A stretch of 64,000 nucleotides of DNA from Betaproteobacteria bacterium (GTDB lineage Bacteria; Bdellovibrionota_B; Oligoflexia; Silvanigrellales; Silvanigrellaceae): the NCBI GenBank assembly GCA_016868315.1, contig VGHE01000002.1:248001-312000 (forward strand), in the 5' to 3' direction. Both the position numbers and the translations under genes were made by a program. Positions 47,429 to 55,845 of the stretch are shown in pieces; within the stretch, counting starts at the first letter, position 1; the number at the start of each line of letters is the position of its first letter. The notes beneath the pieces were generated by a model. That model searched no databases. It saw only the letters and a program-made list of their open reading frames with translations, and had not been told where the DNA came from.

Positions 47429-47961
47429 CAGAAATCCCATCCCAAGCCCGCAGAGAGCGATTGAGCATGTCCGAAGGCCAGGTAAACCGCGCTGTATCCA
47501 GGCGGCACGTACAGCGCATCCCAGGACACTCGGGCGCGTAAATTTCGACCAAGTTCAGGTTTCCAACGTAATCCAAGCGCAAGACCGGCAGCTCTGCTGA
47601 GGGCTGTTGATGCGCCTCCTTCTGGGAGGGTCTGATTCACTGTTGTTCGAAACAGAATGGCACCCACACCGATGTTGGCCTCGAGCACACGGCTCCGCGG
47701 CAGGTTTTGGGAATAGCTAAGGTGAGCCAGAGCCGTCTGTTGTGCAAAGGCAGAGTTTTTCTCTCCGCTGTTGGTGATTGCCAGAAGCACGCCGAACGAG
47801 GTTTGCATCCAGCTGTGCAGGCAGGGCAGTGCACGGTCATCGCCATACGTGACCATCCCGCCCCCTGTTCCGATTTCAAAAGCAAATCCAACTGGACTCA
47901 ATGCACAGGAGAGCACCGAGAGAGACATGCAGCGCAGCCCTATGGAGTCGCTCAATTTCAA
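47428..47961 (-). CDS. Small outer-membrane-type protein A
   Basis: Up to 177 residues with a signal sequence (LSVLSCALSPVGFA), then glycine- and aromatic-rich beta strands ending in F (SLSAGLGWDF). It has the length and terminal Phe of a small outer-membrane barrel. The start is uncertain: TTG 47961 overlaps the hpt stop codon, and ATG 47928 gives a shorter protein with a GGGG site. Both leave a signal peptide. It is coupled with its downstream neighbour. Joint placement after the purine-salvage genes is unexplained. Confidence 0.65.
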   Translation of the reverse strand: MKLSDSIGLRCMSLSVLSCALSPVGFAFEIGTGGGMVTYGDDRALPCLHSWMQTSFGVLLAITNSGEKNSAFAQQTALAHLSYSQNLPRSRVLEANIGVGAILFRTTVNQTLPEGGASTALSRAAGLALGLRWKPELGRNLRARVSWDALYVPPGYSAVYLAFGHAQSLSAGLGWDF

Positions 47962-48506
47962 CAGCCTACAACCTCGGCAACGTAAGGAAGATTACGATAG
48001 TTACCGTCGAGATCCAAACCATAACCGATGACGAAATTCCTCCCGATTTGGAAGCCAACATAATCGGCTTGAATCGATTCTTCGTGCGCTTCTGGTTTGT
48101 CGAGCAGTGCAGCGACACGCATCGATGCAACACCAAGTGCATTCAGTTCGTTGCGCAAAAATGCGATGCTGCGCCCACTGTCGATGATGTCTTCAACAAT
48201 GAGAATATGCCGCCCTGCAAGGCGCTCCGGGAGCTGCGAGAGAAGCTCAATTTTGCCCGTGGATTTTGTTCCCTGGTAGCTCTTGATACGTACTGATTCG
48301 ATTTCAGTTGGCATGGAAATATGTCGGACGAGGTCGGCTGCGAAAAGTAGAGCACCGTGCAACACGACAAGAACAACCAATGCCGAGCCATCGGGAGTGG
48401 ATTGCGCATTGATCTGAGACGCAATTGCAACAATGCGTTCATGGATTTGTTGCTCGGAGAAAAGCACGCGTACGTCACGCGGTTGGCCGCCCACAAGAAT
48501 TTTCAT
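47958..48506 (-). CDS. hpt: Hypoxanthine phosphoribosyltransferase
   Basis: A 182-residue purine phosphoribosyltransferase that makes IMP or GMP from hypoxanthine or guanine and PRPP. Active-site segments are VLHGALLFAADLVR, the PRPP loop VEDIIDSGRS, and DKPEAHEESIQADYVGF with the base-binding part. ATG 48506 overlaps the pnp stop (ATGA) with GAGGT 5 bases upstream. It uses the base released by Pnp and PRPP from Prs. Confidence 0.95.
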   Translation of the reverse strand: MKILVGGQPRDVRVLFSEQQIHERIVAIASQINAQSTPDGSALVVLVVLHGALLFAADLVRHISMPTEIESVRIKSYQGTKSTGKIELLSQLPERLAGRHILIVEDIIDSGRSIAFLRNELNALGVASMRVAALLDKPEAHEESIQADYVGFQIGRNFVIGYGLDLDGNYRNLPYVAEVVGC

Positions 48507-49375
48507 TCGCACCTCAAATGCACTGCTGTTTCCAGCACAAGTTCAGACATAGTTTTGGCTACCGAAGCTCCCATATGTACGACATCGGCGTGGTCGAGGC
48601 GGGTCTCTTTGCCCTGCAATCCCGCGCCGTAGTTGGTCATGCAGCTGAGGCCGACAACACGCGCACCCATCTGGCGGGCAGCGATTGCTTCGAGAACGGT
48701 GCTCATTCCAACAGCCTGCGCACCGAGTGTTTGGAGCATTCGAATTTCAGCAGGAGTTTCGTATGTGGGACCAAGTACACCCGCATATACGCCCCGACGC
48801 AGGCTCACATTCAAAGCTTGTGCACGCGCGACAAATTCTTCGCTCCAGGCAGCGTCATAACAGCGCGTCATGTCGCAGAAACGCTGTCCAAATCCATTGC
48901 CGAAAACACCGGCGAGCGGATTTAACGCGGTGAGATTGATGTGGTCGTCAATCAGCATGAAGTCGCCAAGTGTCCATGATTTTTCAAGACAACCTGCTGC
49001 ATTTGTGAGAATGACACCCTTCACGCCCCAGGCGATCAGAGCGCGCAGGTTGTGAACGACGTCGCCCGCTGTGAAGCCCTCGTAGGCGTGGTTTCGGCCA
49101 CGCAGAAATGCGATTGACCGCGAAGCGTTTGAACCCGTTTGAGCATTGCGAGCGGTGACCTCGCCCACCCGCAACTCGCTGGCGTGACCGACCACTTCGC
49201 TGGTCTTGAAGCCCGGAATTTCAGCGAACTTCAAGCAGCTCATGGATTCAATGCCCGGAATAGCGCCGCCCAGCCCGGAGCCAAGCACAATGCAGATCTC
49301 TGGTGCACTTGCACCGAAATGACTTTTTAAAAAAGCTGCGCTTTGATCAACCCTGGCCTTGTAGCTCGTGTCCAT
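48503..49375 (-). CDS. Purine nucleoside phosphorylase
   Basis: A 290-residue phosphorylase of the trimeric (type II) family that cleaves purine nucleosides to base and ribose-1-phosphate. Signature parts: VLGSGLGGAIPGI, RGRNHAYEGFTAGDVV, GVYAGVLGPTYETPAEIR, VGMSTVLEAIAARQMGA and NYGAGL where most have NxAAGx. The frame is open at ATG 49375 with GAAGAAGGA upstream. It is coupled to hpt. Confidence 0.93.
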   Translation of the reverse strand: MDTSYKARVDQSAAFLKSHFGASAPEICIVLGSGLGGAIPGIESMSCLKFAEIPGFKTSEVVGHASELRVGEVTARNAQTGSNASRSIAFLRGRNHAYEGFTAGDVVHNLRALIAWGVKGVILTNAAGCLEKSWTLGDFMLIDDHINLTALNPLAGVFGNGFGQRFCDMTRCYDAAWSEEFVARAQALNVSLRRGVYAGVLGPTYETPAEIRMLQTLGAQAVGMSTVLEAIAARQMGARVVGLSCMTNYGAGLQGKETRLDHADVVHMGASVAKTMSELVLETAVHLRCE

Positions 49376-51360: not shown

Positions 51361-51460
51361 GCAATTCTCCCTCCTCCCAGTGAAAGCCGGAGCATAGCCA
51401 GCGATGCCTTGTGTCGCAAGCCGACCTGTGGTTAAGGTCGTGCCTCACCCGGAGAACAGC

Positions 51461-52723
51461 ATGAACCGCACACTCTTCCCCCATTTTTTTGCATTTCTCT
51501 TGACGGGTGGATTGCTGGCCTTTCCAGGGGCCTGCCTCGACCTCATTCTCCGTGATTTTTCCTGGAGCCAGGGGCTCTTCGGCACAGCTATGATGCTGCA
51601 GGGTGGGGCGTCTTTCTTGGGGAGTCGGTTTGCCAGCAAGCGCTCGGGTGGTGATGCCTATCGTAAATGGGTTGTGCTCAGTTTGTTGTTTCTGGCTGCC
51701 GGAGTCGTTCTTTACTATTTTGCCGATTGGATCATTTTTCCGCTCGCCCAGGCCGCAGGTGCACCTGAAGGTTTTACATCGTTGCTGCGGCTTCTTGGAA
51801 TCTGCTTCATTGGGTTCGGAATCGGTTGCAACGGCATTCTCAACAACACAGCCGCTTTGGTCAGCGGTAATCCATCGTTCGCACTCAATCTGTTGAACAT
51901 GGGTTTCACGGCAGGCGCAGTGGTGTTGCCCTTATTTGCAAGCCAGTATTTACAGATTTCGGGAGTCACGCAGGGAAATTTGGCCTGGCGTCTTCCTCCA
52001 GCCGTTTTGGTTGGTGCATATGCGGTTCTTTCTTTTTATGTTCTGCGCTCGCCGCATTTGTCGAGACCAGCACCGGTGCAGTCGCACCAAATCAATTCTC
52101 TACGTTGGCGTCTGCCCCTCCCGGTGTGTGCTGCGTGCTTGGTGCTGTTCTGTTACGTAGGCAGTGAAATCAACCTTTCCAATAGCCTTGGTTTGATGTC
52201 GGAAACCATGTTCGGGTTTTCGACCAATGATTCTCGCGTGGCGAGCTCAATATTTTGGGGTGGGTTGTTGGCTGCTCGTTTGTACTTCTGCTTCCGCTCT
52301 CCGCCTGCGTATCTGTACCCTAAAGTCATGACTGCGCTCTCTGCTTTGTGTGTGATTCTTTTCGCATCGTTGCTCTTACGTTTTTTCCAAAGCTTTGAAG
52401 ACGCACTGTTTCTCAGCCGGCTCTGCACGTTGATTTTGGGGCTCTGCATTGGCGGGATGTACAGCCTCGCATTGGGCTCGCTGACTGTGTTTTTTGATTC
52501 CAACCACGCGCGCCATTTTGCAAACATTACCGTTTTGAGCGGTGTGGCTGGAGCTGTCATTCTTCCTTTTTTATTTGGTCAAATCTCAAATGCGGCCGGG
52601 TTGAACAGCGCAACCTTGTTTTTGCTCATCCTTTTGAGTGGTATGGCACTGGGGGCGGCACTGTTGTTTTATGCGAGTCGCCACTTGGGTAGCCGCGACG
52701 CACAGTCTGCGCCGGCTCACTGA
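51461..52723 (+). CDS. MFS transporter
   Basis: A 420-residue membrane protein with about 12 predicted helices, such as FAFLLTGGLLAFPGACLDLI, LGICFIGFGIGCNGILNN and LILGLCIGGMYSLALGSLTV. The pattern fits the major facilitator superfamily, in a sugar-transporter-like branch (N-terminal half with ASFLGSRFASKR in place of the usual loop 2-3 motif). ATG 51461 follows GGAG; upstream codons are not part of it. Substrate is unknown. Its 3' end overlaps the opposite lipoprotein gene by 7 bases. Confidence 0.82.
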   Translation: MNRTLFPHFFAFLLTGGLLAFPGACLDLILRDFSWSQGLFGTAMMLQGGASFLGSRFASKRSGGDAYRKWVVLSLLFLAAGVVLYYFADWIIFPLAQAAGAPEGFTSLLRLLGICFIGFGIGCNGILNNTAALVSGNPSFALNLLNMGFTAGAVVLPLFASQYLQISGVTQGNLAWRLPPAVLVGAYAVLSFYVLRSPHLSRPAPVQSHQINSLRWRLPLPVCAACLVLFCYVGSEINLSNSLGLMSETMFGFSTNDSRVASSIFWGGLLAARLYFCFRSPPAYLYPKVMTALSALCVILFASLLLRFFQSFEDALFLSRLCTLILGLCIGGMYSLALGSLTVFFDSNHARHFANITVLSGVAGAVILPFLFGQISNAAGLNSATLFLLILLSGMALGAALLFYASRHLGSRDAQSAPAH

Positions 52724-53865
52724 TTGGGAATTTTCTCGCTGAAGGCTGCCTTCATGCGGGGCGGCCTTTCTTCGAAGGCACTGAAGACTTCAAGTTTAAT
52801 CTCGTCGGCGCGCACAGCAATCATTACGGGCATGAAACGTGAGAACTTGCTCTCCATGTCGGGTCCTTCTGCTGCTGGACCACTCGACAGATTGAAGAAC
52901 AGGTTGTCGATTTGAACCTTGAGATCGATCTTTTGGGTGGGCGGATAATCCTGCGTGACCCGCTTGCGCACAGCATCGGTCAAAGCCAAGGGTGAAAACA
53001 TCTGGTGAGCCGCAAGAATAGGATTGCGGCTCATGTCGACAGTGACAATATCCACGTCAGAACTCTCAAGTTTCGCCCTTCCGTTCACATAACTTCCGCC
53101 CATATATATTGTGTACTGCGATGCAATTGGACGTTTGTTTTTTTCTTCTTTAAGAAATTGTTGAAAGATACGCGCCACGTCGAAAACCTGTTGCGCTGAG
53201 TAGTTGCCGCGTGAGCCGTCGGGGAAAATGATTTCCCGGAAGACTGCAAGGTAGGAGTCATACGCAGCGGTGAGATCGGTTTTTACTTTTTCATGAGTGC
53301 TGATGATCTTGAGTGGATTCACTGCATAGCTGAGGATGGCATCGAGGCAACGCTTGGGTGCAACAATGGTACTCTTCCACGAGTGGTCGCCCTTGGACGC
53401 AGTGGCATAGGTTTCTTTTACGGTGGCAATGATCGTGTCGCGCAAATCATCGGGCAAAAGGGAGAGTTCTGTAAACCCATCGACTTGCGGGAGTCCATCT
53501 TTCGCGCAGACGCCTACGTAGCGCTTCCACTCGTCGGCATCGAAAACAACACGCAGCAGCTTCTGCTTCGAGGCCTGGGAACCAATCATGGATTTTGCTT
53601 TTTCAATGATTTGGTTGCGCTCGTCGGGGCTCACCTTTGAGGTGGCCGTGGCGAGCTTGGTGAGCAGGTCTTTATTCTCAACGAGTCGTTCTAGGGGGTT
53701 CGTCTTGAGAATGCTCAGCGCCCCCTGAAGCTGTTCGTCGGTTTCGGAGCGCAAACCCGTATCGTTGTGTGACCTGGACTTGCAACTGCCGAGAATGACG
53801 GTTGAACCTAGGAGGATTGCGAAAATTGGTAACATTTTCTTTGACGCAGTGGGCGTTCGGAACAT
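52717..53865 (-). CDS. Lipoprotein with nucleotidyltransferase-type motif
   Basis: A 382-residue protein. The N-terminal signal ends in a lipobox (VILGSCKS), so it should be a lipoprotein outside the cytoplasm. The first half is helical (about 40-190). Near 253-275 it reads YMGGSYVNGRAKLESSDVDI, which fits the GS-xxx-G...SDxD core of the pol-beta-like nucleotidyltransferase fold, with the two metal-binding aspartates. A third acidic strand, KIDLKVQID, follows at about 308-317. I see no toxin, antitoxin or immunity gene beside it. The reaction and substrate are unknown; catalytic activity outside the cytoplasm would be unusual. ATG 53865 follows AGGAG. It ends inside the MFS gene's 3' end. Confidence 0.8.
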   Translation of the reverse strand: MFRTPTASKKMLPIFAILLGSTVILGSCKSRSHNDTGLRSETDEQLQGALSILKTNPLERLVENKDLLTKLATATSKVSPDERNQIIEKAKSMIGSQASKQKLLRVVFDADEWKRYVGVCAKDGLPQVDGFTELSLLPDDLRDTIIATVKETYATASKGDHSWKSTIVAPKRCLDAILSYAVNPLKIISTHEKVKTDLTAAYDSYLAVFREIIFPDGSRGNYSAQQVFDVARIFQQFLKEEKNKRPIASQYTIYMGGSYVNGRAKLESSDVDIVTVDMSRNPILAAHQMFSPLALTDAVRKRVTQDYPPTQKIDLKVQIDNLFFNLSSGPAAEGPDMESKFSRFMPVMIAVRADEIKLEVFSAFEERPPRMKAAFSEKIPNQ

Positions 53866-54046: not shown

Positions 54047-55066
54047 ATGGAATCGCGTTTTTCACGCAGACAAATTTTGAAACTGATGGGGCTCTCATTG
54101 TGTAGCCCGGCCTTTTCGAAATTAGCCGTGGCCGCAGATACGCCGTGGGTACTTGGCTTTGGCTCTTGCATGGACACGCGCAAGAATCAGAGCTTCTGGG
54201 AGACACTCAACGCACGTTCTTTCAGTCACTTTGCATTTCTCGGTGATAATCTCTACCCCGAGCGCGACACCCTTATCGGACTTGAAACTGCATACCAAAA
54301 GCTTGGTCTTTCTGAAGGCCTGAAAAAGCTGCGCGAACGAGTTTCCGTTTCGGCAATCTGGGATGACCACGATTTTGGTGCTGACAATGCCGATGCAAGT
54401 TTACCTTTTCGCCGCGAGTCGCTTGCACTGTTCAGAATCTTTTGGACGCAGGATTATGCGAGCGACGACGACGGAATTTATTCGAGCCAGATGTTCGAGC
54501 ATCAGGGGCGAAAAATTCATCTCATTCTGTTGGATGCGCGCTTCAATCGCACGGCTTATGAAAGCCCCAAGAAGCTTGATTCAAATTTGACTTCGAGCAA
54601 GCCATTCGAGCCCTCTCTTTTGGGAGCGAGGCAATGGGAGTGGCTCGAGGCTGAGCTCAATCGTCCCGCAGATTTGAAGATCATTGGTTCAAGCATTCAG
54701 GTTCTCTCTGCCGAGCATCGTTTTGAGAAATGGATGAACTACCCCGATGAATACGAGCGCCTTGTGGGAATTCTTGGGCGCATTTCTGCACCCACACTGA
54801 TTCTCTCGGGCGACCGACATCTGCACGAAATCAGTAAGAAACAGTTGGTGAGTGGCCGCGCACTGTACGATTTTACCTCAAGCGGATTCAATAAAGCTGA
54901 GGGGCTCTCGCGGTTCGAACGCAACAAGCTGCGCGTGCAGCGTAATCTTGATGATGGTTTTGGAGAAGTGCAGATCCGCTGGGTCGACAACGTTGCCTAC
55001 GTTTCCATGTCTATGATCGACAAAACCGGTGAGGTGCGTTTCACGCACTCAGATTTCGTGGTCTGA
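54047..55066 (+). CDS. PhoD-like phosphatase, Tat-exported
   Basis: A 339-residue metallophosphatase. The twin-arginine signal SRRQILKLMG starts at residue 5 and ends near KLAVAAD. Catalytic parts of the PhoD family: VLGFGSCMD, HFAFLGDNLYPERD, IWDDHDFGADNAD (metal ligands) and LILSGDRHLHE at the end. It is shorter than classical PhoD. It should cleave phosphodiesters or monoesters outside the inner membrane. A start of ATG 54047 follows a GGTAGGCTC region. A bidirectional terminator follows it. No PHO box was found just upstream. Confidence 0.88.
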   Translation: MESRFSRRQILKLMGLSLCSPAFSKLAVAADTPWVLGFGSCMDTRKNQSFWETLNARSFSHFAFLGDNLYPERDTLIGLETAYQKLGLSEGLKKLRERVSVSAIWDDHDFGADNADASLPFRRESLALFRIFWTQDYASDDDGIYSSQMFEHQGRKIHLILLDARFNRTAYESPKKLDSNLTSSKPFEPSLLGARQWEWLEAELNRPADLKIIGSSIQVLSAEHRFEKWMNYPDEYERLVGILGRISAPTLILSGDRHLHEISKKQLVSGRALYDFTSSGFNKAEGLSRFERNKLRVQRNLDDGFGEVQIRWVDNVAYVSMSMIDKTGEVRFTHSDFVV

Positions 55067-55089: not shown

Positions 55090-55120
55090 AAAAAGGGTGC
55101 CCGTGTGCGGCACCCTTTTT
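55090..55120. terminator. Bidirectional terminator
   Basis: AAAAAGGGTGC (55090-55100) pairs with GCACCCTTTTT (55110-55120) over a nine-base loop, with A/T runs on both sides. It serves the plus-strand phosphatase and the minus-strand broken lipoprotein gene. Confidence 0.92.
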
Positions 55121-55845
55121 ATTCTCCGCCATATATGTATTTATACTGGTTTGGGATGCTGTTGCGATCGAAAGTCGGATCGTTGTCGTAAAGGGAACCC
55201 TCTGCGTCATCGATCCCGAGTGCAGCATCGAGTGTCACTGTGTCGTCGTCCATGCCTGCAGCGTGATAATTGATGCGCATGCGCATATTCGCGGAGACCT
55301 GTGCGATGAACCAATCCGCTCGCATTAGCGGGAGCGGTTGTGAGAAGAGTAGCCCTGACGGATTATCCTCAGCTCTGCAGCGCTCGGATTCACGCTTCTC
55401 GACCTCTGAAATAGTGCCGTATGCGCCTTGAACTGCAGGATCAACCTTTTGAGCTGCTTCGCGCATCTGTTTCGCCATGCGCAATAGAATGGGATGATTG
55501 GGGACTGGAAGTCCCTGTTTGAAGGTATGAACATCCGGGTTGATAAATTTTGCTTTGATCCGCTGGAGCACCGGTCTTAAAAAGACCTTTTTCGGCGAGT
55601 GCGGCGAGATTTCCAATGTCGCCCGTGTTGCCGGCATTGGTTCCATTCTGTCCTTGGCAGGAATAGCACTTTGATTCAAATATTTCCTTCACCCGTTGCT
55701 GCAGTGCGAGGTACGAAAGTGCTTCATCGCTCCTCTGGACAACTTTTCGACTTTCAGGGGTAATGATTTCGTTCGTTGATTTTCTGGAGTTGCAAGCGGT
55801 GGTGGCAAGCACCAGCACTCCAACAAAAAAGAAGTTTGCAGACAT
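55119..55845 (-). pseudogene. Broken cytochrome-c-like lipoprotein gene (frameshift)
   Basis: Two overlapping minus frames belong to one original protein. The first (from ATG 55845) has a lipobox (VLATTACNS), then FESKCYSCQGQNG and SKIYQ, typical of c-type cytochrome lipoproteins, but its second half is nonsense. The matching C-terminal half (DVHTFKQGLPVPNHPILLRM, ending YIYGGE) reads on in another frame. The frame change lies near 55535-55560, probably close to the AAAATTT run. The heme motif reads CxxCQ, so the axial His is lost. Both faults fit a decaying gene. An assembly error is the alternative for the frameshift, but it does not explain the His loss. Confidence 0.75.

Follow-up and report, generated by a model that had tools for sequence, protein, structure and literature searches.

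A predicted exported lipoprotein with a probable nucleotidyltransferase domain, and its relatives across Bdellovibrionota

The stretch of Silvanigrellaceae DNA analysed here (64,000 nucleotides, 'the window') carries a minus-strand gene for a predicted lipoprotein whose C-terminal part resembles nucleotidyltransferases (NTs) of the pol-beta superfamily (Table 1). A sequence-only reading had placed this gene between an MFS transporter gene and a PhoD-like phosphatase gene, and Pfam identified both neighbours as such; the 3′ ends of the convergent MFS gene and the NT gene overlap by 7 bases. Within the genus, the gene order hypoxanthine phosphoribosyltransferase (HPRT), purine nucleoside phosphorylase (PNP), oligopeptidase F, MFS transporter, NT gene and PhoD-like gene is conserved as a block, which we regard as a neighbourhood rather than an operon because its strands alternate. 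The HPRT (47958-48512) and PNP (48503-49375) genes overlap by a few bases and, as a pair, keep their synteny with the NT gene across the genus. Linkage to a PhoD-like gene is seen in the window's genus and in a second genus of the same family (genome G047), where that gene is divergent from tandem NT copies; across 26 neighbourhoods in which a conserved partner gene was sought, none was found outside the genus except this PhoD gene of G047. Elsewhere in the window, two minus-strand open reading frames (ORFs) overlap in different frames at 55119-55845, the upstream one beginning with a lipoprotein-like signal (TTAC); Pfam gave no match in either, and the pair might be one frame-shifted gene.

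Table 1 Features of the NT-domain locus, in window coordinates.
Feature	Coordinates	Strand	Evidence
MFS-type transporter gene, convergent neighbour	51404..52723	+	Pfam; synteny kept in genus
Predicted exported NT-domain lipoprotein gene, 382 aa	52717..53865	-	ORF with ATG start; orthologs in two same-genus genomes (L002, 81% identity; L003, 69%); purifying selection
Signal peptide and lipobox LGSC, predicted lipidated Cys28	53782..53865 (lipobox codons 53782-53793)	-	Sequence; PROSITE-type pattern; family export signals
Mostly helical region (predicted), residues 29-250, with PKR 170-172 (codons 53350-53358)	53116..53781	-	AF2 model
Probable NT-fold core, residues 246-361	52783..53130	-	Pfam, PDB profile search, AF2 domain model, Foldseek
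Putative active-site signature GGS-x3-G-x6-SDVD, residues 256-272	53050..53100	-	Near-invariant in 28 relatives
Strand with candidate third acid, D314 or D320	52906..52926	-	E/D in many relatives at that strand
PhoD-like phosphatase gene, divergent neighbour, twin-arginine signal SRRQILK	54047..55066	+	PF09423, E=1.2e-10

The N-terminus, MFRTPTASKKMLPIFAILLGSTVILGSC, runs from a positively charged n-region through a hydrophobic segment to the lipobox L25-G26-S27-C28; the lipobox noted earlier as GSC is thus LGSC, which at residues 25-28 satisfies a PROSITE-type lipoprotein pattern. In the C-terminal domain the protein reads G256-G257-S258-YVN-G262-RAKLES-S269-D270-V-D272, a pol-beta-type signature that bears out the GS-x3-G...SDxD motif previously located near residue 255, with Pfam support beyond chance from NTP_transf_2. 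A candidate third acid occurs twice, as D314 (KIDLK) and D320 (VQID).

NTP_transf_2 matched the window protein over residues 244-276 with E=0.0015 and 19.3 bits, just under its cutoff of 21, and scored 21.3 bits, above that cutoff, in a six-frame search of the genome; a PADLOC oligonucleotide-cyclase model matched the protein with E=2.8e-4. Searched against the PDB, a profile of 28 family sequences returned NT-fold proteins as all five of its best matches (E 0.0022-0.0072; OAS2 0.0022, AF0614 0.0024, HI0073 0.0025 and two further NTs). The window protein as a single sequence gave no match in the PDB search, and a PHROGs search gave none. When the relatives were scanned singly, Pfam NT models were the commonest matches, with NTP_transf_2 in 12 of 28, alongside Polbeta (5.8e-6), the MTPAP palm (6.7e-5) and the DNA pol B palm (2.6e-5), and NCBIfam MntA at 1.4e-6. 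Weak matches to LisH, LRAT, DUF7124, HAAS and NCBIfam PRK08271 were dismissed as chance. That no named family has this layout, as had been remarked from the sequence, agrees with what we found: four libraries contain no model of the whole protein, no library model names the family, and literature searches yielded no description of an exported NT family of this kind, which is no proof of absence.

In fold searches with the full-length AF2 model (pLDDT 70), in which residues 35-250 are mostly helical, helical proteins ranked first, and comparison with the NTs 2rff and 1no5 gave weak Z values of 4.9 and 4.5 over residues 215-359. A model of residues 166-368 (pLDDT 79, pTM 0.81) has the NT-like order helix-beta-GS turn-beta(SDVD)-helix-beta-beta-beta. 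Its best Foldseek match was HI0073, with weak statistics (E 0.029, probability 0.96), followed by DrrA and then, mostly NTs again, HEPN-MNT antitoxins, AadA, CutA, TUTases, CdnE and a CCA-adding enzyme. VIA placed NTs at a weak Z of 4-5, intermixed with RbfA and others, the values cited for the NT matches being Z 4.4-4.9. A viral library gave weak matches only, one of them a Catovirus pol-beta NT; no structure search produced a confident match to an unrelated fold. The structural comparison proposed in the sequence-only reading therefore supports the NT fold in the identity of the leading matches and in the order of elements, but not in statistical strength, and the weakness of these scores counts against an active NT. 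With sequence profiles, motif and fold list in agreement, the C-terminal domain is probably an NT of the pol-beta superfamily.

Family profile searches, with a profile of ten sequences first and then of 28, detected the family at E<1e-15 in 30 of 369 genomes in the phylum of a Bdellovibrionaceae metagenome-assembled genome (MAG) and in 6 of 58 genomes in the window's phylum; NCBI taxonomy places the order Silvanigrellales within Bdellovibrionota. Members are distributed over a bacterial group with predatory and host-associated lifestyles. The scan of genome contigs used one motif pattern built from six sequences. L059, L093-L095 and other short matches, by length ordinary cytoplasmic MNT-type proteins, were left out of the counts. 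Eight genomes of a sister genus (g5) in the same taxonomic family gave no match, and viral contigs, plasmids and phages held no detectable relative. A distant relative (L004) occurs in genome G013. The Silvanigrellales MAG G047 has, besides one further copy (L005), three tandem, divergent lipoprotein-like copies beside its PhoD-like gene (L007:509-5072), which suggests local duplication and divergence. Larger forms were also seen: a different genus of the family to which the window belongs has a 653-aa lipoprotein-like relative with long insertions, GSTGNGKAGATPGGFSDVD (G046, L092:881-2842), and in the Bdellovibrionaceae MAG two helical and NT units stand in tandem within one frame of 786 aa (L022:7524-9881). 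Two such units recur at L032:1495-3735, where the second is without the GS/SDxD signature, a sequence difference that suggests an active/inactive pair.

Among the newly detected relatives whose N-terminus is complete, nearly all open with a hydrophobic signal sequence, as assessed with a hydropathy script and visual inspection rather than with a specialised predictor. In Silvanigrella-side proteins a Cys immediately follows the hydrophobic stretch in a lipobox-like setting: the strict PROSITE-type pattern is present in the window protein, P0006 and P0008, and L002 (LPSC), L003 (LTAC), L004 (LSNC) and P0007 (YASC) deviate from it at one position, the two genus orthologs retaining L-3, [SA]-1 and C. 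Bdellovibrio-side relatives often have an AxA-like cleavage site, and because these proteins resemble signal-peptidase-I substrates rather than lipoproteins, 'exported NT' fits the whole family and 'membrane-anchored' mainly its Silvanigrella side. The earlier proposal of an exported, membrane-anchored NT accordingly extends to the family in its first half only; export signals are almost universal among the relatives, but the strict lipobox expected of orthologs is confined to the window protein and some of them. In Bdellovibrio-side N-termini (L067-L086), a C-x-x-[hydrophobic]-F motif stands a few residues past the predicted signal-peptidase-I site, in the place of the Silvanigrella-side lipobox Cys. 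It occurs in 12 predicted exported proteins among 312 neighbourhood ORFs, ten of them family members, and it may perhaps serve in disulfide formation, anchoring or sorting.

In an alignment of 28 relatives, which share 13-26% identity with the window protein (the ortholog excepted), G257 is invariant, and conservation reaches at least 90% at S258, G262, S269, D270, D272 and R172; the PKR triplet is invariant in alignment A2. The family motif approximates GS[FYLTV]xNG[KR]A-L--SD[LIV]D, and the expectation that orthologs would keep GS and both aspartates was borne out by their near-invariance, shared by the following G, across these divergent sequences. The possible third acidic strand fared less uniformly: D314 or D320 is present in the window protein and its orthologs, and the strand reads hxh[E/D] in many relatives, but other branches have His or nothing there. 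The signature is gone from L043 (PILE replaces SDxD) and from the second unit of L032 (GRF..LSIE), so some copies in the family may be inactive. Comparison of the window gene with L002, in which synonymous sites are close to saturation, gave a pN of 0.064 over residues 246-365, 0.108 over 166-245, 0.158 over 31-165 and 0.32 for the signal peptide. The same order held against L003; the NT domain is under the strongest purifying selection. We take the window protein to represent a real lineage within a known superfamily, exported and apparently undescribed.

NTs of the pol-beta superfamily are normally cytoplasmic enzymes and need nucleoside triphosphates (NTPs), whose synthesis is confined to the cytoplasm. 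An exported member must for this reason draw its NTP from lysed prey, hosts or neighbours, and with such a source the acceptor would most likely be a macromolecule of the envelope or of foreign origin, encountered where cells break open. We envisage that Sec would export the window protein, that Cys28 would most likely be lipidated and that the protein would be retained in the cell envelope, its +2 Lys pointing to the outer membrane. By analogy with the superfamily, the triphosphate would sit at GGS, two Mg2+ would be bound by D270 and D272 together with D314 or D320, and the nucleoside monophosphate (NMP) would pass to an acceptor held at or close to the helical N-terminal part. That the protein is such an envelope-anchored enzyme, using scavenged NTP to place NMP on an acceptor in the envelope or of foreign origin, seems to us an evenly balanced proposition. 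Bdellovibrio is reported to use prey NMPs during intraperiplasmic growth (PMC7529429), and this use by B. bacteriovorus shows that nucleotides can be present outside such cells, although they are NMPs, not NTPs specifically, and tied to a predator lifestyle. The generalization to the Bdellovibrionota family as active secreted or surface-anchored NTs that draw on nucleotides of broken prey or host cells to modify macromolecules of the envelope or of foreign origin by nucleotidylation (AMPylation, for example) is tentative, and we think it rather doubtful.

Counting against an active enzyme are the ambiguity of the third acid in the window protein, with His often in its place in several relatives, the loss of the signature from some copies, and the absence of a conserved partner beyond the window's family. 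The missing third acid in part of the family would suit an exported protein whose NT fold serves to bind nucleotides (or nucleic acid) without transfer, a capture or sensing lipoprotein for scavenging together with the PhoD-like phosphatase and purine salvage, as would the PhoD-like gene adjoining in two genera and the PNP and HPRT genes within the same genus-wide syntenic block. Such a binder has little obvious need of the SDxD aspartates and GS, the most conserved residues, and the block has alternating strands, which make no single operon, and is lost outside the genus; on balance we judge this account, the chief rival, somewhat unlikely. It is very unlikely that the signal sequence goes unused or that the signature arose by chance in an ordinary lipoprotein of another fold: the single-sequence Pfam score just below cutoff and Foldseek E-values >0.001 would allow it, but signature and signal peptides are independently kept in dozens of divergent relatives, and the family profile matches solved NTs.

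If the domain does transfer nucleotides, template-independent addition to extracellular nucleic acid, in which RNA or DNA from prey or the environment would be tailed in the manner of CCA-adding enzymes, TUTases or CutA, is suggested by the CCA-adding enzyme, CutA and TUTases among the fold matches and by the MTPAP and DNA pol B palm matches in relatives. These are equal-ranking members of one superfamily and for that reason do not point to nucleic acid, and Pfam found no PAP/CCA-associated or RNA-binding domain; we consider tailing unlikely. The PADLOC cyclase match and OAS2 as best PDB profile match would fit an exported CD-NTase/OAS-like oligonucleotide-cyclase synthase for signalling or conflict, a highly improbable role given that Pfam found no C-terminal OAS-type domain, that no CBASS effector was recognised nearby and that an extracytoplasmic site would cut the enzyme off from its usual substrate pool. 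Should the family-wide reading of active exported NTs prove right, these proteins would be the extracellular equivalent of an otherwise cytoplasmic superfamily of enzymes. That an exported family keeps its signature intact throughout a lineage implies either that nucleotides drive a reaction in the envelope or in prey, or that the fold is reused for nucleotide capture; each would be unusual for this superfamily in bacteria, and its Bdellovibrio-side members could allow direct tests in culture.

Among known systems, the minimal NTs (HI0073, MntA; NTP_transf_2) share the GS-x-G-SDxD signature and provide the best sequence and fold matches; they are short cytoplasmic proteins of about 100-140 aa with HEPN-type partners, whereas the window protein is exported, has a large N-terminal helical region and adjoins MFS and PhoD-like genes with no HEPN-type partner. 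OAS/CD-NTase cyclases share GGS-x3-G-x(n)-SDxD and the PADLOC and OAS2 matches, but the window protein differs in its signal peptide and in having no detected C-terminal OAS-type helical domain (no Pfam match; in the model the protein stops about 20 residues past the main core strands), and no CBASS genes lie among its neighbours (MFS, PhoD-like, oligopeptidase F, PNP and HPRT). By context, the protein is neither an MNT antitoxin nor a CBASS cyclase. RelA/SpoT-type polymorphic toxins, whose NT-related fold is predicted to act in other cells (PMC3482391), are a different subfamily, and the window locus is without a recognised toxin delivery domain or immunity gene. The AMPylation domain of Legionella DrrA/SidM, the second Foldseek match, resembles the window protein at the level of the probable NT fold alone. 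The DrrA domain acts outside the bacterium that produces it; DrrA is a type IV-injected effector, whereas the window protein carries a Sec signal and a lipobox.
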